Shown here in pieces: positions 1,050-11,282 of a stretch of 50,930 bases of DNA. Below the pieces are notes generated by a model that ran no database searches, was not told the DNA's origin, and was given only the letters and a program-made list of their open reading frames with translations. Numbering within the stretch: position 1 is the stretch's first letter; every line of letters begins with the position of its first letter. Position numbers and translations under genes: made by a program. This DNA is from Lachnoclostridium sp. An118 (lineage in GTDB: Bacteria; Bacillota; Clostridia; Lachnospirales; Lachnospiraceae): positions 1 to 50,930 of the forward strand of contig NZ_NFLQ01000022.1 of assembly GCF_002160985.1 (NCBI RefSeq), written 5' to 3'.

Positions 1050-1175
1050 ATTATACCATTCCTGTCATTTGATTTCTCGCTTATGTAAAAAGAGAGCAGT
1101 ACATCTCCTGTCCACTCTCTCCCAAACGGCCCTACTTGTGATATGGTTCCCCATAACATATCCAAGTGCGGTTTT
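1050..1175 (-). repeat. rlmH-tail repeat, copy 1 (cassette boundary B/C)
   Basis: In the minus direction this holds the motif CCGCACTT (1164-1172), then a sequence reading Gly-Glu-Pro-Tyr-His-Lys-stop as in the rlmH end (1132-1154), a terminator hairpin (1091-1120) and a promoter remnant. The promoter has ATGACA at 1063-1068 and TATAAT at 1050-1055, but only 7 bases lie between them where copies 2 and 3 have 17. About ten bases appear to have been deleted. Confidence 0.75.
1087..1120 (-). terminator. Terminator hairpin in repeat copy 1
   Basis: AGAGAG (1091-1096) pairs with CTCTCT (1115-1120) and is followed on the minus strand by a T run. It matches the hairpins in copies 2 and 3 and would stop transcription leaving cassette B. 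Confidence 0.55.
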
Positions 1176-1184
1176 CGGTTCCTT

Positions 1185-1655
1185 TTAAAATCCTCCATTA
1201 TTATAAGCTCTTGTGATCACATAAGACGGTTCATAATAGGCGCTGCTATTGTAATTATCAATCGTATCACATATTTCATCGTTATATACTCGGATCATTC
1301 CATCAATATAGTCTTCCTCCGACTGTAACGTTGACAGAATCAGCCTTGTATACACCTTTCCCATCTGTGTTTCTGATGGGATTTCATCTACCAGTTCTGA
1401 ATCTACATCCGTTATGTCAAAATTCCCCTTTGCCAACTTATACTCTTCAATCCATTGATCTTCAATTTTCAGAGGATTCTCACAGTGAAGTACATTGGCC
1501 AGGCTGATCAGACGCACCCACTCATCTTTCGGTATAGAATTAACAACATATTTATTCTTCTGATGTAATTTTCTTGCGACACGTTCTACCATATAGCACA
1601 AAAAATAAAGATCATTCTCGGATATTTGTTCTTCCGGAAAAAATTTATTTGTCAT
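1185..1655 (-). CDS. Partner protein of the DUF3990 gene, unknown function
   Basis: This acidic protein of about 156 residues has an N-terminal segment (ISENDLYFLCYMVERVARK, residues about 11-29) that resembles small DUF3791-like proteins often encoded beside DUF3990 genes. Its ATG overlaps the stop of the upstream DUF3990 gene by four bases (ATGA), so translation is probably coupled. The layout suggests a toxin-antitoxin or modifier-regulator pair with this gene as the second member; that is inference. It ends about 10 bases before the inverted motif at the cassette end. Confidence 0.68.
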   Translation of the reverse strand: MTNKFFPEEQISENDLYFLCYMVERVARKLHQKNKYVVNSIPKDEWVRLISLANVLHCENPLKIEDQWIEEYKLAKGNFDITDVDSELVDEIPSETQMGKVYTRLILSTLQSEEDYIDGMIRVYNDEICDTIDNYNSSAYYEPSYVITRAYNNGGF

Positions 1656-2104
1656 AGCGAATAACCCCCTTCGAATTTGATAGTCTGTAATGCTTTCTCT
1701 GTACAGAATACAATCTGATGCGTCGGATACTTAAACTTAACCAGTTCCCAGAACGCCTCTTTTGAAATTCGTTCAGCCATATAGTCCTCGACATAGTCCC
1801 AGATTGTATCATCTGCCATTGGTCCCTCGACAACATCATAATCATGTTTTAAACCAAGCCGGCAGTTTACGACAAATTGTAGCCACTCCTCTGTCATTTC
1901 GCTAAAATTTTTAATGTTCAGATTCTTATCAGGTGAATACTCATAAAAATTTACAATGTGCTTTCTGCGTTTTGTCAAAGCCCAGCGTTTTGCCTGCTTT
2001 TCTAAAATTGTACAATAAAATCCATAGCCAAAATCTTTGTAGAAACCATTTTCCAAGATTTGCGGTTCCTGGACTATGACATTGCTTCCATGATACAAAA
2101 TCAT
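1652..2104 (-). CDS. DUF3990 family protein, possible ADP-ribosyltransferase fold
   Basis: The 150-residue protein begins MILYHGSN and has DFGYGFYCT at residues about 25-33, then a conserved VVEGPMADD stretch and a C-terminal QIVFCTEKAL. These match the DUF3990 family, which has been grouped with ADP-ribosyltransferase-like folds; the HGS and GFY elements would correspond to the NAD-binding His and Tyr. Enzyme activity and toxicity are not shown by the sequence. The ribosome site is GGAG about 11 bases before the ATG. The downstream partner overlaps by four bases. Confidence 0.78.
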   Translation of the reverse strand: MILYHGSNVIVQEPQILENGFYKDFGYGFYCTILEKQAKRWALTKRRKHIVNFYEYSPDKNLNIKNFSEMTEEWLQFVVNCRLGLKHDYDVVEGPMADDTIWDYVEDYMAERISKEAFWELVKFKYPTHQIVFCTEKALQTIKFEGGYSL

Positions 2105-2125
2105 ATACTTTTTACTCCTTTAAAG

Positions 2126-2321
2126 TTATGGTTTATCAGCATTCCTTTTTGCTCTTTCCTTCTCTAATATTGTAATCGCAAATATAGCTATAAAAAATCC
2201 GATGATACAGATTACTGTTCCGCTAAATGAAATTGTTGAATTTATAAATCCTGTAACTTCGTTAATCACAGCTAAAACATATTACTAAAGCAATCTTAAA
2301 TATTGTCGTGTATTTCTTCAT
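2126..2321 (-). pseudogene. Frameshifted small membrane protein
   Basis: A good ribosome site (GGGTGATATAA) precedes an ATG at 2321 and a short frame reading MKKYTTIFKIALVICFSCD-stop. In the neighbouring frame the coding signal resumes (VINEVTGFINSTISF) and runs through a hydrophobic segment (TVICIIGFFIAIFAITILE) to a stop at 2126-2128. Joined, they would make a protein of about 65 residues with two membrane segments. The shift falls near 2270-2285 beside a TTTT run, so a real lesion, a slippery site and a sequencing error are all possible. Confidence 0.5.
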
Positions 2322-2380
2322 TTATATCACCCTTTCACTTAGCAAACTAAGCTTTTCTAGTTTATTGAAATGAACTACAA

Positions 2381-2662
2381 TCAAAATTTCCGCAAAATCA
2401 CATATGCTTCACTTAAGGATTTATGAAATATTTTTTCTCTTATTTCAGGAGTCAGACCGGGTTCATCAATATAGCACAAACAAGCATCTGCTACTGTATT
2501 TATAAAATATTCATGAAACAAAGGATTCTGATAAGTATCTGCATATTTAGAATAAAATGGCTCTGCTATTTCGTAATACTCCTCTTTTGTAATTTTACCA
2601 TCAAGATAATCTTTTATTTGATTTAATATAGTTTCTTTAAATATGACACTATTATTTTTCAT
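2381..2662 (-). CDS. Small acidic protein, unknown function
   Basis: This is a 93-residue helical protein without signal peptide or membrane segment. It contains LDGKITKEEYYEIAEPFY (residues about 20-37) and ADACLCYIDEPGLTPEIREK (about 58-77). Size, acidity and the company of toxin-antitoxin-like and SMI1/KNR4 genes recall small immunity proteins, but I do not recognise a named family and no cognate toxin is seen. AT-rich codon use fits the rest of the island. Confidence 0.6.
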   Translation of the reverse strand: MKNNSVIFKETILNQIKDYLDGKITKEEYYEIAEPFYSKYADTYQNPLFHEYFINTVADACLCYIDEPGLTPEIREKIFHKSLSEAYVILRKF

Positions 2663-2703
2663 TATTATTTTTCAGCCCTATTCTACTACATATTAGGATT
2701 AAT

Positions 2704-2988
2704 CTATTTATAAAATATAATATATCCTGCTTCTTTCGGATGGTCTACAATTAGACTATCGCGTTCCTTTAATACGTTAAAAGCAATAATCAAATCTACT
2801 CCTGCGGCAACAAGATTAACTATCATGGTAAGCAACAATATAGTGCCCGGATATATAAAAACAAACAGTACCCTACCTAAACCTAATATTACAAACGGTG
2901 TCAAAACACCTATTAAATATTGTTTCTTTTTCAATGTCACCCTACAAGCACAACTCGGCATTATTGCATCGATATTAAAGCGAACCAC
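2704..2988 (-). pseudogene. C-terminal remnant of a DUF3267-type membrane metalloprotease
   Basis: The frame encodes two hydrophobic segments (FVILGLGRVLFVFIYP and ILLLTMIVNLVAAGVDLIIA) and ends LIVDHPKEAGYIIFYK, which is how DUF3267 putative zincin peptidases end. The N-terminal part with the HExxH zinc site is missing: the frame is closed by a stop at 3010-3012, only a few bases from the promoter of repeat copy 2. A GTG at 2988 could start translation but lacks a convincing ribosome site. I read it as a remnant cut at the cassette boundary. Confidence 0.55.
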
Positions 2989-3017
2989 ATTCCAAAGTTG
3001 CCAAGTCGCTTAAGTTT

Positions 3018-3046
3018 ATTATAACACCCCCATATTCCCCTGTCAT
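3018..3046 (-). promoter_or_regulatory. Sigma-A-like promoter of cassette B
   Basis: ATGACA (3041-3046) and TATAAT (3018-3023) are separated by exactly 17 bases. The pair sits at the same place in repeat copy 3 and would drive the cassette B genes leftward. Confidence 0.65.
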
Positions 3047-3064
3047 TTTCTTTCTTGTATATAC

Positions 3065-3100
3065 AAAAAAAGAGAGCGGAACACTATCTGCCCACTCTCT
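3065..3100 (-). terminator. Terminator hairpin in repeat copy 2
   Basis: AGAGAGCGG (3071-3079) pairs with CCACTCTCT (3092-3100) with one G-T pair, followed on the minus strand by seven T residues. It would end transcripts leaving cassette A. Confidence 0.75.
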
Positions 3101-3163
3101 TCCAAACCAGATTTATTTATGATATGGCTCTCCATAACGTATCAAAGTGCGGTCCAATAAAAA

Positions 3164-3448
3164 TCAACAATAATAACTTATCTCTCTAAAATATGCAAAC
3201 CATTTCTGAATAATATCAGTACTACGTGCCTCAACCATTCTCATAATATTGCGCAACGTATGTGAAGGTATTCTTGAATTATTATTGCAGAGCAGACATT
3301 TCCCCGCACTGGTAATCCATACCTTTGTCGCATTTTCAGATGGCTTTCCTTTTGCGATATGTACGTGGATCGGTTCAACAGGTTTATTCTCATTTGTCCA
3401 GAAATAAATCCAGTATTCTCCCATTCTAAAGATTTGAGGCATTCTCAA
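3164..3448 (-). CDS. DUF4160 family protein
   Basis: This 94-residue protein shows the DUF4160 pattern: MPQIFRMGEYWIYFWTNE at residues 3-20, then EPIHVHIAKGKPS, then a C-terminal helix region (IMRMVEARSTDIIQKWFAYF). The family is of unknown biochemical function and is usually encoded with a small partner, in an arrangement resembling toxin-antitoxin modules. It overlaps the upstream 90-residue gene by 23 bases, so the two are probably translated together. It ends about 10 bases from the inverted motif at the end of cassette A. Confidence 0.8.
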   Translation of the reverse strand: MRMPQIFRMGEYWIYFWTNENKPVEPIHVHIAKGKPSENATKVWITSAGKCLLCNNNSRIPSHTLRNIMRMVEARSTDIIQKWFAYFREISYYC

Positions 3449-3698
3449 AGCCCCCTTCCTGAGAGAATTCGATAATAAGATGTGCCGTTGACCTTATTAT
3501 CTCTTCGAATTGCTTAATCTCTTCTTCTGAAAAATGGTAAATATCTTCCCATGTGTAATCGGGGAGCCAACATGCAGCATGTTTAAATCCATATTTTTCA
3601 TCTGGTCTCTCAATATACACTTTTACTCTTCCATCATTCTGCATATCAGAATGAACAATTTCTGTCTCATCATTCAATGTCATAAATGGATACATCAT
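3426..3698 (-). CDS. Small partner of the DUF4160 protein
   Basis: This 90-residue acidic protein contains LNDETEIVHSDM (residues about 8-19), CWLPDYTWEDIYHFSEEE (about 43-60) and HLIIEFSQEGGFENAS near the end. I have the impression of a protein commonly found before DUF4160 genes in Bacillota but cannot give it a family name from sequence alone. The 23-base overlap with the next gene and the small size suggest the first member of a two-gene module, possibly the antitoxin; that is inference. Confidence 0.72.
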   Translation of the reverse strand: MMYPFMTLNDETEIVHSDMQNDGRVKVYIERPDEKYGFKHAACWLPDYTWEDIYHFSEEEIKQFEEIIRSTAHLIIEFSQEGGFENASNL

Positions 3699-3790
3699 AT
3701 CATCATTCCTCCCTGCTTCTTATACGCTCTATTATATCCTATTAAGAATATTTTCAATTAGGATCTGCCATACAAACCGGAAAACGAAAA

Positions 3791-4207
3791 CTAAAACTCG
3801 TACTTTGTTCCATGTGAAAGCAACAGTCCATCGGTTAATTCTACACATAAAATTATAGTATTCTCATCTTCAAAATTATTATGTCCATTGTCGATCCACT
3901 CAGAAAATACATTTTTCAATTTCTCGGCAATCCAGTAATTTTCCTCTTTCCCGAAATATCCCAAATTGATACTCTTTCCATGTGCCGTGAACCATTCACC
4001 AGCTATTGCAACAGTAGAGTTGCTTTCCATATGCCTCATTTTATTTGAAAGTGCATATGTAATAATATAAAATGCACCATTCTCATAATATGCATTTACA
4101 TAACGTACAAAAGGCACCTCACTTTCTACTGTTGCCAATGCAATAATGGTATCTTTTCCAAATCGTTCCGACATTATTTTTTCAGCATCTTCACTTAATT
4201 TTTTCAC
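3791..4207 (-). CDS. Pyridoxamine 5'-phosphate oxidase-like (split-barrel flavin) protein
   Basis: This 138-residue protein reads like a short PPOX-fold protein: it starts with a helix (KLSEDAEKIMSERFG), then IALATVESEVPFVRYVNAYY, AFYIITYALSNKMRHMESN and a conserved VAIAGEWFTAHGKSINLG. The family binds FMN or F420 and includes many small reductases of unknown substrate. An intact beta-barrel pattern suggests a functional protein. It is separately transcribed or co-transcribed within cassette A; its link to the membrane genes upstream is not clear. Confidence 0.8.
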   Translation of the reverse strand: MKKLSEDAEKIMSERFGKDTIIALATVESEVPFVRYVNAYYENGAFYIITYALSNKMRHMESNSTVAIAGEWFTAHGKSINLGYFGKEENYWIAEKLKNVFSEWIDNGHNNFEDENTIILCVELTDGLLLSHGTKYEF

Positions 4208-4234
4208 AAAGTCATCTCCCTTACCAATTGTAAT

Positions 4235-4696
4235 TTATATAATAGCATTTTCCATTGATTTTTCTTTTGTAACTTTTTCACCTAAATAATTAGCAAGCTT
4301 TTCTGTAAAAAAGCTAAAGTAAGATACTCCGTTGTTTCTTTTATTTTGAAAATATGGCAAAAATCCCCATAGTGTTGATGGAATCCCCATTACTATTAAA
4401 TATAATGGTCCAAAAATAAGGGATTGAATTGTATGACCATATTCGTGAACTAAAAGCCTTTTACTTAATTCTTCATCTGGTATTTTATTTTTTGTTCTTT
4501 TATCTTTCATCGGATTAGTTGTTGTAAAGACGAACATTCCCAAAGATACACTTGAAGGAACATTTCTTTCAGTAATAATTGCACCGTGATAAAAATAATG
4601 TTTATTTTTTATATTAATTAAAAGTACTATAAATCCTAACAATGTTTGTGGCAATCCCCAAGTGCATTGAATTAATATATATATTACATTTTTCAT
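4235..4696 (-). CDS. Membrane protein with HEYGH zinc-protease-like motif
   Basis: The protein of about 153 residues has an N-terminal membrane segment (residues about 3-27), HEYGH at about 84-88, a second hydrophobic stretch (IFGPLYLIVMGIPSTLWGFL) and a C-terminal FFTEKLANYLGE that could supply a third metal ligand. HExxH is the zinc site of many metalloproteases; activity is inferred. A TTG at 4729 overlaps the upstream stop, but GGAG six bases before the ATG at 4696 fits much better. It follows a second membrane protein and the two are probably one operon. Confidence 0.72.
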   Translation of the reverse strand: MKNVIYILIQCTWGLPQTLLGFIVLLINIKNKHYFYHGAIITERNVPSSVSLGMFVFTTTNPMKDKRTKNKIPDEELSKRLLVHEYGHTIQSLIFGPLYLIVMGIPSTLWGFLPYFQNKRNNGVSYFSFFTEKLANYLGEKVTKEKSMENAII

Positions 4697-4725
4697 AACT
4701 AACTCCAATCTACAACTTAGGATTT

Positions 4726-5208
4726 TCAAACCATCTTACTCATTATTAAAGCAATAATTAAAGCAATTATTGCAAATCCAACTATGGTTCCCAGCCATTT
4801 AACTATTTTCATTTTTGTAGGAATATAAGGTTTTAATTCTTCTGTATTGGGTATATCCCACGCTTTTGTATGTTCTACCCAATACCAGTCAACAAAAAAT
4901 CTATCAAATAGTCCCATTATATACATTATTAATAAACTTTGAATAAAAATATCTCCAAACTCTCTTGCACCATTTATATAGCAAACCATCAATGGCACAA
5001 GAATAAAACAAGGCAAGTATAAAACTATAATTGATATAATGGTTTGTTTCTTTATTTCTTTTTGAGTAGTATATCCTAATTTTATTGCTTTTTCTTGAAC
5101 ATTCTTTTCGTAAAACACAGTAAATTTTTCAGGACCATTTGCTATACCAATAACACAAAACATTAAAAGTATAAAACATAATACTATACCTTCCATTAGA
5201 ATTAACAT
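4726..5208 (-). CDS. Four-helix membrane protein, unknown function
   Basis: Hydrophobic segments lie at about residues 2-24 (LILMEGIVLCFILLMFCVIG), 56-76, 85-102 and 138-157. Between them are a charged loop (FTVFYEKNVQEKAIKLGYTT) and a loop with DWYWVEHTKAWDIPNTEELK. I cannot name the family. The frame opens upstream with a TTG at 5250, but GAGGAG directly abuts it; the ATG at 5208 has GTGAG nine bases before it, so the start is uncertain. The next gene, with an HEYGH site, begins 30 bases downstream, suggesting the two act together. Confidence 0.62.
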   Translation of the reverse strand: MLILMEGIVLCFILLMFCVIGIANGPEKFTVFYEKNVQEKAIKLGYTTQKEIKKQTIISIIVLYLPCFILVPLMVCYINGAREFGDIFIQSLLIMYIMGLFDRFFVDWYWVEHTKAWDIPNTEELKPYIPTKMKIVKWLGTIVGFAIIALIIALIMSKMV

Positions 5209-5268
5209 TAAAATCAACTCACTTTCAAATTCCAATTTTGCACCGCTCAACTCCTCGATAAATTTTCT

Positions 5269-5964
5269 TTAGTCATTCTTCCTTAAAATCGAATTTTGAC
5301 TGCCTAGATTATACGGACAAATATCTCTACACTTATGACAAGCTATTCTCCAAACCTGCTCTTCTTCATCATCTCCAAATGCAAAATCCCAACAGGATTG
5401 CTGTTTTATTTCTGGATTTTCTAAAGCATTTACAGGACAAATATCAACACATAAGTTACAATTATTACAAAGAGGTTCTTTCATTTTATCAGGCTCAAGA
5501 TTCTGTTCGCATAACACTGCTCCTAACCAGACCATACTTCCAAACTCTGGCGTTATTAACAAAGAATGCCTCCCTATTGTTCCCAAGCCCGCCGCTTGAG
5601 CTATATGTTTTTGCGAAACAATAGAACGCCATCTGTTAGTATTTTTATCCCATTGGCTTTCATTTGTAGGAATAGGAACACATACTATCTGGTTCTTTTC
5701 CATTTCAATACAAAAATCCAGAGCTATCGCATCCATTTTTGACGTGATAGAATTTCTTACCCTTGTATATGGAATATTAGACTTGCAATTAAGTGTTCCT
5801 ACTGGAAATCTGCAACCAAAAGAAATTACCGATTTGCAAGTCGGAAGTGCATCTAAAGGATGATAGCCTTTCGGTGCATTATCAAACCTATCTATACTTG
5901 CTATACCACACAAATCTGCACCTAACGCAAACATTATTTCCTTTATCCTTTTACTATCCAACAT
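5269..5964 (-). CDS. Double 4Fe-4S protein related to epoxyqueuosine reductase
   Basis: The protein of about 231 residues has a C-terminal ferredoxin-like part with CNNCNLCVDICPVNAL and CHKCRDICPYNLG, enough cysteines for two 4Fe-4S clusters. The N-terminal part (FALGADLCGIASIDRF, then GTIGRHSLLITPEFGS) resembles QueG-type reductases. It is much shorter than QueG (about 380 residues) and lacks its C-terminal HEAT repeats, so the substrate may differ. GGAGGGG seven bases before the ATG at 5964 decides the start over the one at 5982. It is the first gene after the cassette A promoter. Confidence 0.82.
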   Translation of the reverse strand: MLDSKRIKEIMFALGADLCGIASIDRFDNAPKGYHPLDALPTCKSVISFGCRFPVGTLNCKSNIPYTRVRNSITSKMDAIALDFCIEMEKNQIVCVPIPTNESQWDKNTNRWRSIVSQKHIAQAAGLGTIGRHSLLITPEFGSMVWLGAVLCEQNLEPDKMKEPLCNNCNLCVDICPVNALENPEIKQQSCWDFAFGDDEEEQVWRIACHKCRDICPYNLGSQNSILRKND

Positions 5965-6011
5965 ACAATATCCCCTCCGCAAATCCCAATCTGTCGACCT
6001 AGTTTTACTTC

Positions 6012-6040
6012 ATTATACCATTCGTTTATTTCCCTGTCAT
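6012..6040 (-). promoter_or_regulatory. Sigma-A-like promoter of cassette A
   Basis: ATGACA (6035-6040), 17 bases, TATAAT (6012-6017). The first gene starts at 5964, giving a leader of about 40 bases. Confidence 0.7.
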
Positions 6041-6059
6041 TGTCTTTCTTACCCATACG

Positions 6060-6091
6060 AAAAGAGAGCGGAACATCATCTGTCCACTCCC
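6060..6091 (-). terminator. Terminator after rlmH
   Basis: GAGAGCGG (6064-6071) pairs with CCACTCCC (6084-6091) over eight pairs including two G-T pairs, followed on the minus strand by TTTT. It lies about 35 bases beyond the rlmH stop and insulates the island from rlmH. Confidence 0.65.
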
Positions 6092-6126
6092 TTTCAAATA
6101 CTCCACATACTTCATACCATACGCAC

Positions 6127-6606
6127 TTACTTGTGATATGGCTCCCCATTGATTATCCGGTAGCTCCTGTACACCTGCTCCAGCAGGATGACCCGCATGA
6201 GCTGGTGGGGAAAGGTCATCTTCGAAAAGCTGAGGGCAAAGTCAGACCTTTTAAGCACCTCTCTCCCAAGCCCTATGGAGCCGCCGATGACAAAAGCGAT
6301 GCTGCTCCTGCCGGACAGTCCAAGGGCATCTATCTTGTCCGCCAGCTCCTCAGAGGAGAGCATACTTCCTGCGATCTCCAGGGTGACCACATACATATCC
6401 TCCCTGATATGCCTCATGATACGCTCCCCCTCTTTTGCGCGGATACTCTCCTCCACAGCCTCGCTGGCCTGGTCCGGCGTCTTCTCATCCGCCACCTCTA
6501 TGATGTCCAGCTTACAGTAGCGGCCAAGCCGCTTGCTGTACTCGGCGATGGCATCCTTCAGATATTTTTCCTTTATCTTTCCCACTGTGATCAATGTGAC
6601 CTTCAC
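6127..6606 (-). CDS. rlmH: 23S rRNA (pseudouridine-1915-N3) methyltransferase RlmH
   Basis: This SPOUT-family enzyme methylates pseudouridine 1915 in helix 69 of 23S rRNA. Visible are [20 protein letters not shown] at the N-terminus, the SAM-knot [40 protein letters not shown] and the invariant tail NGEPYHK. A GTG start at 6606 gives the usual 159 residues and has AGGAGG upstream; the ATG at 6633 would include the ribosome site in the coding region. The gene's last codons are the attachment-like repeat of the adjoining island. It remains intact despite the insertion. Confidence 0.95.
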
Positions 6607-6647
6607 CTGTCCTGTTTCCTCCTGTTTACCCACTCAAAATAATACAG

Positions 6648-10544: not shown

Positions 10545-11282
10545 CTAGGAATGGCGCAGCATGCTGGGAGTAATGGTACCCTCGATGCCCGCCTTGGCCG
10601 CGTAGCCCTTCAGGATTTTCCAAAAGCCCTGCCTGCTCATCTTCCTGCCGCTGATATTGGGAAAGAGCACATCCGAGCCATGCCCCTTGAGGAGAGGTTC
10701 ACGCCCGTTTTTCAGATATGCCTTCATGGCCTTCAGCGCCTGCTTATCGATCGGATAGGCATTCTGGTTGCCCGGAAAATGACACTGGAGATAGCCTATC
10801 TCCAGATTGACATCCTGTATCTTGAGGCTGACAAGCTCCTCGACCATGATCCCCGTAGAATACAAAAGCTCGATCATGGCCTTGTCCCGGAGCAGCTTCG
10901 GCGTCTTCCCGCTGGGAATAGCCAGGACCTTCTCCACGTCCTCCTTGGAGGCGCTCTTCGGCTCTCTGCGCTCAATCTTCGGACTGGTCAGTCCCTCTGA
11001 CACATCCTCTTTTATATATTTCTTTTTGAAGAGATAATTAAAAAATCCCTTGATCGAAGCCACGTTTCTGGATATGGTCGTATTAGTCAGCTTCTGTTTC
11101 TCCATATGAAGCATATAGGAATTCAGGTTTGTCGCCGTGATCTGCGCCACCTCCTGGATCCCCTGCGCGTCAAGATAACGGACAAGCTTCATGAGGTCCC
11201 GTCTGTACGCCATCTCCGTGTTCAGAGAAATCCCCTTCACTTCTTTTAAATACTCTACATATTCTAACACTATTTTTTCCAT
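10545..11282 (-). CDS. Truncated, probably inactive XerD-like tyrosine recombinase
   Basis: The N-terminal core-binding domain (residues about 1-85) is complete. The catalytic domain begins normally, but the first catalytic Arg is replaced by Met (STGIMVEELVSL where Xer proteins have GLRVSEL), the beta-hairpin Lys region reads HFPGNQNAYPI, and the frame stops at MLRHS, exactly in the second catalytic box. The C-terminal His/Trp and nucleophile Tyr are therefore missing; about 50 residues are absent compared with XerD. It has its own promoter, ribosome site and terminator and lies beside spoIIM and a NUDIX gene, the usual xerD neighbourhood of Bacillota. It could bind DNA or a partner but should not cut. 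Confidence 0.85.
   Translation of the reverse strand: MEKIVLEYVEYLKEVKGISLNTEMAYRRDLMKLVRYLDAQGIQEVAQITATNLNSYMLHMEKQKLTNTTISRNVASIKGFFNYLFKKKYIKEDVSEGLTSPKIERREPKSASKEDVEKVLAIPSGKTPKLLRDKAMIELLYSTGIMVEELVSLKIQDVNLEIGYLQCHFPGNQNAYPIDKQALKAMKAYLKNGREPLLKGHGSDVLFPNISGRKMSRQGFWKILKGYAAKAGIEGTITPSMLRHS

Follow-up and report, generated by a model that had tools for sequence, protein, structure and literature searches.

A probable tandem array of SCC-like, recombinase-less cassettes at the 3' end of rlmH in Lachnoclostridium sp. An118

The stretch of DNA analyzed here (the window) is the whole of contig NZ_NFLQ01000022.1 of Lachnoclostridium sp. An118, 50,930 nucleotides long. It belongs to a 3.47-Mb draft genome in 57 contigs, which is genome G000 in our sample of 11 genomes of the genus. 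Its subject is the 3' end of rlmH, the docking place of the staphylococcal cassette chromosome (SCC), which makes staphylococci resistant to methicillin. The rlmH gene, which encodes a 23S rRNA methyltransferase and hosts the attachment site, occupies positions 6127–6633 on the minus strand, the strand of all window features described below. It was taken from the list of open reading frames (ORFs), and 10 of the 11 genus genomes, the window's included, have a match to it (none was found in G007). The last 22–23 bases of rlmH recur in two further copies 3' of the gene, in the same orientation, as the original prediction had claimed with coordinates one base off. The attachment core is rlmH's own tail in copy 1 (6128–6150); it lies at 3114–3136 in copy 2 (3114–3154 with the left arm) and at 1133–1155 in copy 3 (1133–1174 with the left arm). 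A pattern of the 23-mer tail with up to three mismatches gave three matches in the draft genome and none with the reversed control, and a profile search down to E = 10 added one match, at E = 2. All three tails read GEPYHK-stop, and within these codons the differences are confined to silent positions and the stop codon, in agreement with the earlier description. Copy 2 has the SCC core motif TATCATAA; rlmH and copy 3 read TATCACAA, which differs from it by one base, and the C that the available passages of PMC6222049 call essential is kept.

The flanks of the cores differ between rlmH and the internal copies. In copies 2 and 3, ACCGCACTT left arms (with CCGCACTT at 3145–3152 and 1164–1171) replace the upstream rlmH sequence, and the rlmH site itself has no left arm. 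The right arm AAGTGCG starts at the rlmH stop (6122–6128). In other genus members this arm is altered at rlmH (G004) or absent from it (G006, G008, G009 and G010), which argues that it was probably brought by the element. One cassette, the first, is bounded by AAGTGCG and CCGCACTT, and to this extent the inverted arms of the original prediction are confirmed.

The repeat extends about 100 bases beyond the tail, with a hairpin and a promoter, a part that had been overlooked. Terminator-like hairpins with a T-run follow all three tails, at 6060–6091 after rlmH (−18.9 kcal/mol for 6054–6096), at 3066–3100 in copy 2 (−18.4 kcal/mol for 3061–3103) and at 1087–1120 in copy 3 (−16.1 kcal/mol for 1083–1124). 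These energies of −16 to −19 kcal/mol correspond to z values of −4 to −5; a simple terminator scan flagged none of the three hairpins. Promoter-like ATGACA-N17-TATAAT sequences lie at 6012–6040 in cassette 1 (11 of 12 consensus positions, with TG before the −10 element) and at 3018–3046 in cassette 2. They are the top two of 24 promoter-like matches in 7 kb, in a lax scan for which 25.6 matches are expected by chance. The hairpin-promoter module has 18 matches in the 11 genus genomes, 14 of them 3' of rlmH (two of which are half-modules separated by an intron), with the other 4 at different places; within this sample the module appears nearly private to the rlmH locus. Partial copies lie away from rlmH in three genus members (L250, at G000:C44:150506; G003:C31:106159; G005:C12:123628). 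In one site module of G001, a group II intron (Rfam; L025, 7831–9597, minus strand) with a reverse-transcriptase-like frame splits the hairpin from the promoter.

The tails bracket two AT-rich blocks of the sizes first described. Cassette 1 (3137–6127, 3.0 kb) and cassette 2 (1156–3113, 2.0 kb) have GC contents of 33% and 34%, compared with 55% for 6128–50930. Between the last tail and the contig end there is a third block, also overlooked in the original prediction, cassette 3 (1–1132), which is incomplete at the contig end and holds a SUKH/SMI1-KNR4 immunity-like gene (233–769). All cargo genes are oriented as rlmH. Cassette 1 encodes a QueG-like ferredoxin-type protein (5269–5982; 75 bits, below the cut-off of 200), two proteins that look hydrophobic (4726–5250 and 4235–4729), a weak PNPOx match (3791–4207), a 90-amino-acid protein (3426–3698) and a DUF4160 protein (3164–3448). 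Cassette 2 encodes a DUF3267 match (2704–2988), a small gene without an assigned family (2381–2662) and a DUF3990 protein (1652–2104) with its partner (1185–1655); these last two form the PADLOC candidate pair PDC-M10A/B, with E values of 5e-78 and 2e-87.

Comparison of the regions downstream of rlmH, as the original prediction had proposed, revealed other cassettes and other orders within the genus. A profile of the site matches 5 of the 11 genomes and leaves 6 without a match. Internal sites are present in G000, G001 and G002; G003 and G005 have the rlmH site only. There are four internal sites 3' of rlmH in G001 and three in G002 (the third by profile only), and the DUF4160 and PDC-M10 cassettes stand in reversed order in the window and in G001. 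Cassettes shared by these two genomes are 95% and 91% identical, compared with 73% for the rlmH region; between the window and G077, a member of another genus, the cassettes are 91% and 87% identical and rlmH 67%. The same cassettes stand in new contexts, have passed between genera and, judged from these identities, have moved recently. Of the two readings that had been offered, non-autonomous or decayed cassettes, recent movement makes the former the better fit; decay fits less well, though arms and one promoter are worn. On the right side, the shared homology stops at or just past the core (window versus G001, G002 and G077), and in G005 the shared match continues into the hairpin. Neither a fixed gene order lacking an empty site nor tails at chance level, the two observations that the original prediction had set against itself, was seen.

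The same data bear on the simplest account of the repeats, an ordinary tandem duplication of the rlmH 3' end by local rearrangement. Tails in one orientation behind rlmH would be expected from it, but only about 22 bases of rlmH recur and the internal copies have CCGCACTT arms where rlmH sequence should stand. Moreover, the blocks differ in their genes, deviate in GC content from the rest of the contig and occur in another genus. In our view the present data already refute this account, and we give it next to no weight.

A difference of one unit separates the sister genomes G001 and G002, which are 98.5% identical over the first 4.6 kb. G001 carries an extra 3.7-kb unit whose ends coincide exactly with two repeats; in its place G002 has a single chimeric site, made up of the left half of one flanking G001 site and the right half of the other. 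The switch falls within seven bases, GGGAACC, between closely spaced mismatches. The evidence on cassette excision or circularization is this one unit difference. From this one mapped junction we infer that the crossover lies left of the last rlmH codons, so that the incoming unit would supply the end of the gene.

A complete element of the same site type provides a candidate for the enzyme. In a set of 200 Lachnospiraceae genomes, one per genus, the site profile matched 23. Twelve of these have a match whose start falls within the left arm, which is the form of an internal site, and several of the other matches are the rlmH site itself. The match in G230 lies in a response-regulator-like open frame, on a different contig from rlmH, and was dropped as false, which leaves 11 of the 200, the window's genome included. 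In G186, another member of the family, a 9.2-kb element between the rlmH site and an internal site encodes a DUF1643 protein, an 831-amino-acid protein (no solved-structure match at E up to 0.01), a 560-amino-acid large serine recombinase and a protein in the nuclease position, whose sequence starts as that of the PD-(D/E)XK nuclease found in this place in G023. The evidence largely supports the original prediction of SCC-like cassettes without a recombinase at rlmH, and here a recombinase-bearing counterpart sits at the same gene. The G186 recombinase scores 388 bits against the CcrB model, below its 900-bit cut-off, and reaches none of the NCBIfam cut-offs for CcrA, CcrB and CcrC (700–900 bits); by sequence it is Ccr-like, not an orthologue by this standard. 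Eight recombinases of the rlmH-tail group score 333–433 bits against the CcrB model and four others 112–262. Close relatives of the G186 enzyme (E up to 1e-70) are present in 5 of 397 family genomes.

Linkage between this class of recombinase and the site extends beyond the family. A scan of 84,980 species genomes gave, among the best 80 of 169 stretches, 79 loci, in Lachnospiraceae, Clostridium and Bacilli; 70 of them (at least 41% identity) form the linked-recombinase set and 9 serve as controls. In 56 of the 70 loci the next 6.5 kb downstream contain a same-strand tail copy (at most one mismatch), and in 1 of the 70 the copy is on the opposite strand. Among the 14 loci without a tail copy, 8 run out of contig. 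None of the nine controls has a downstream copy (three end within 6.5 kb). The rlmH gene itself lies upstream on the same strand, within a reach of 10 kb, in 20 of the 70 loci and in none of the nine controls; in L225 it is on the other strand, and for [Clostridium] fimetarium (G309) the stretch examined gave no rlmH match. Dyad arms matching in at least six of seven positions were found at 37 of 72 internal sites, 0 of 14 rlmH sites and 314 of 3000 random places. In a quick tree of 57 of the 70 linked loci (13 lack an open frame of at least 470 residues), 8 of the 9 controls and 28 further recombinases, the linked recombinases group with S. aureus CcrB (Shimodaira–Hasegawa-like approximate likelihood-ratio support, SH-aLRT, 98); outside this CcrB-like group fall CcrA and the recombinases sampled from the genus of the window. 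Against CcrB, the 57 linked enzymes score 226–372 bits and the 36 others 66–244, with slight overlap. At L157 (G293) stop codons interrupt the element's recombinase gene, which has sites on both sides. The recombinase of a neighboring element in G001 was considered as the mover of the cassettes and rejected, as it scores 112 bits against CcrB and groups elsewhere in the tree; the break in homology between G001 and G002 around a helix-turn-helix gene suggests that this element sits there, not at rlmH.

Integron cassettes are small gene packets in a one-way array, with site-specific exchange at a fixed chromosomal place, and the window array likewise consists of small one-way packets at a fixed chromosomal place. 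It differs in that its site lies inside a coding gene, its relatives are of the serine-recombinase type and its promoters are in the cassettes. An integron-like array moved by a tyrosine recombinase would account for small tandem cassettes with their genes in one direction, and there is a XerD-like open frame at a distance of about 4 kb (10545–11282). That frame is truncated: it stops right after MLRHS, presumably before the catalytic end of XerD, and a look at the next 200 bases in all frames of the strand did not turn up its remainder. As to the marks of an integron, IntI next to attI and attC sites, no search aimed at them was made, and this truncated frame is all that was seen in the window. 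Moreover, in 56 of the 70 loci this type of site accompanies a serine recombinase, and we consider a tyrosine-recombinase array highly improbable. The earlier statement that the window holds no recombinase stands for the serine type, as none of the genome's six PF07508 matches is on the contig; it needs to be qualified for this truncated XerD-like frame.

The units bounded by such sites span a wide range of sizes, from elements of 9–10 kb through a single-gene unit to one of 142 bp. In the single-gene unit of G023 the order is rlmH, PD-(D/E)XK nuclease, site. The 142-bp site-to-site unit leaves no room for a usual gene and is conserved in five loci (L165, position 13364; L168, 1916; L173, 828; L209, 933; L079, 47). 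At L209 it lies directly at rlmH, whose tail there reads GQPYHK with the same CAG as the unit. On contig CAJTGE010000002 (L222 and L173) it lies between two Ccr-like recombinase elements in tandem, the second of which has a broken recombinase frame.

Taken together, the region behind rlmH is very likely an array of SCC-like mobile cassettes without a recombinase, at least two of them complete and one cut off, which stand in tandem at the 3' end of the gene and would be moved by a Ccr-type large serine recombinase acting in trans. A circular cassette would carry a single site, made up of left arm, rlmH-tail core and right arm. The recombinase of an autonomous element would act in trans to join this site with the rlmH tail or with a tail copy in the array; we infer action in trans because the enzyme for the window's own sites was not seen. 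Sequence to the right of the crossover, and with it the new rlmH end, would come from the incoming element. Such an element must re-encode the last rlmH codons, which would explain tails with only silent differences. Every insertion would add one tail copy, so that units would stack. The hairpin is predicted to end rlmH transcription, and the promoter behind it to drive the cassette genes.

Several observations weigh against this mechanism. No close relative of the G186-type recombinase is present in the 11 genus genomes (the best has 30% identity), and the enzyme that moves the window cassettes was not seen in that sample. The unlinked control L229 falls, on a long branch, inside the Ccr-like group of the tree. 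At the sites themselves, copies 2 and 3 have imperfect right arms (AAATCTGG and AGGGCCGT), and the promoter of copy 3 is a broken remnant (1050–1068) with a spacer of 7 bases instead of 17, 10 bases being lost. The mapped G001/G002 switch falls outside the TATCATAA motif of SCC and enterococcal sites, immediately to its left. Near relatives show a weak contrast in identity (SUKH gene 93% versus rlmH 91% in G003; cassette 88% versus 79% in G005), and in G003 the window's SUKH gene follows rlmH directly, the spacer of the window being absent. Three cassette-type sites of G151 (L074) lie on a contig (45) that does not hold the rlmH of that genome, and not at its end; perhaps this is a secondary insertion place. 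As for carriers, the internal-site pattern, which finds 32 of 252 analyzed loci (many overlapping), matched 0 viral contigs; viral contigs held no relative of the G186 recombinase, and plasmids no match to the end of cassette 2. Finally, the left ends of shared cassettes are often inside a cassette (for example, 2405 and 4514 in rlmH-forward numbering). As homology often starts within cassettes, other recombination has also acted on them.

Some of these points would be expected if the repeats were old SCC scars and homologous recombination were the only process, with RecA exchange adding and removing units. This explanation fits a genus sample in which no close relative of the recombinase turned up, homology that ends inside some cassettes, and site modules that are about 75–89% alike over 64–192 bases. 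It does not readily account for a G001/G002 switch confined to seven bases between closely spaced mismatches, nor for the right ends of shared cassettes at or just past the core, though the G005 match does enter the hairpin. We regard exchange by RecA only as unlikely, and movement of the cassettes by a Ccr-type enzyme as the better explanation.

Islands at rlmH are known from several genera, Clostridioides difficile among those named in the part of PMC10581047 that was available, which also gives the direct repeats of SCC as the last rlmH codons, GAAGC(A/G)TATCATAA(G/A)TGA. The window array shares with SCC its place at the 3' end of rlmH and the direct repeats of the last codons. SCC, too, has tandem composites and members without a recombinase (ccr-less and composite pseudo-SCC), and the DUF1643 and DUF960 genes beside ccr recur in the related elements of G186 and Clostridiaceae 14S0207. 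The window cassettes differ in their size of 2–3 kb and in the hairpin and promoter that accompany two of the three sites; the related G186 element encodes a single CcrB-like recombinase instead of a CcrA and CcrB pair. As the window contig has no ccr and the 11 genus genomes no close relative of it, the array is classed as a recombinase-less relative, as pseudo-SCC is, not as a full SCC element. The enterococcal cassette chromosome (ECC) also uses the rlmH site, with a TATCATAA core and inverted arms in attR/attECC, and has 42 ORFs on average, including ccrAB (available passages of PMC6222049); units of the window type have one to six genes and no recombinase. In the pattern given there, as across the related loci and, with imperfect right arms, in the window, inverted arms are on the distal, attR-type sites and not on the left of the rlmH site. 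SCC-like islands of Bacillota with Pol-SSB pairs combine a large serine recombinase, rlmH, end repeats and tandem composites (e.g., P. pinistramenti), and those of C. difficile and C. perfringens sit in ssrA; the passages of PMC10061031 that describe them mention neither Lachnospiraceae nor promoter-bearing mini-cassettes. Nothing on such rlmH elements in Lachnospiraceae was found in the open-licence PMC literature. SCC-like islands at rlmH across Bacillota, their end repeats and their tandem composites are already in print, and the promoter-bearing mini-cassettes, the gene-free 142-bp unit and the Lachnospiraceae setting are new. What sets the variant apart is its size, its hairpin-promoter module, the 142-bp unit and a genus sample that has no close relative of the recombinase.

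These results place the attachment system of the methicillin-resistance cassettes in commensal gut anaerobes and show its smallest forms, packets that hold little beyond a site with its terminator-like hairpin and promoter, and packets that hold no gene. The origin and movement of recombinase-less SCC elements become testable in non-pathogens, and the locus suggests itself as a natural place at which genes could be inserted into such bacteria. More tentatively, and with somewhat less than even confidence, gut Lachnospiraceae may maintain a distributed exchange of cassettes at rlmH, in which tiny promoter-bearing or gene-free (142-bp) cassettes, some with candidate defense cargo, would be reshuffled and transferred between genera by Ccr-type recombinases in trans. 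Such an exchange would be the serine-recombinase counterpart of integrons, in which each cassette would supply a promoter of its own and restore the end of the gene at which it docks.

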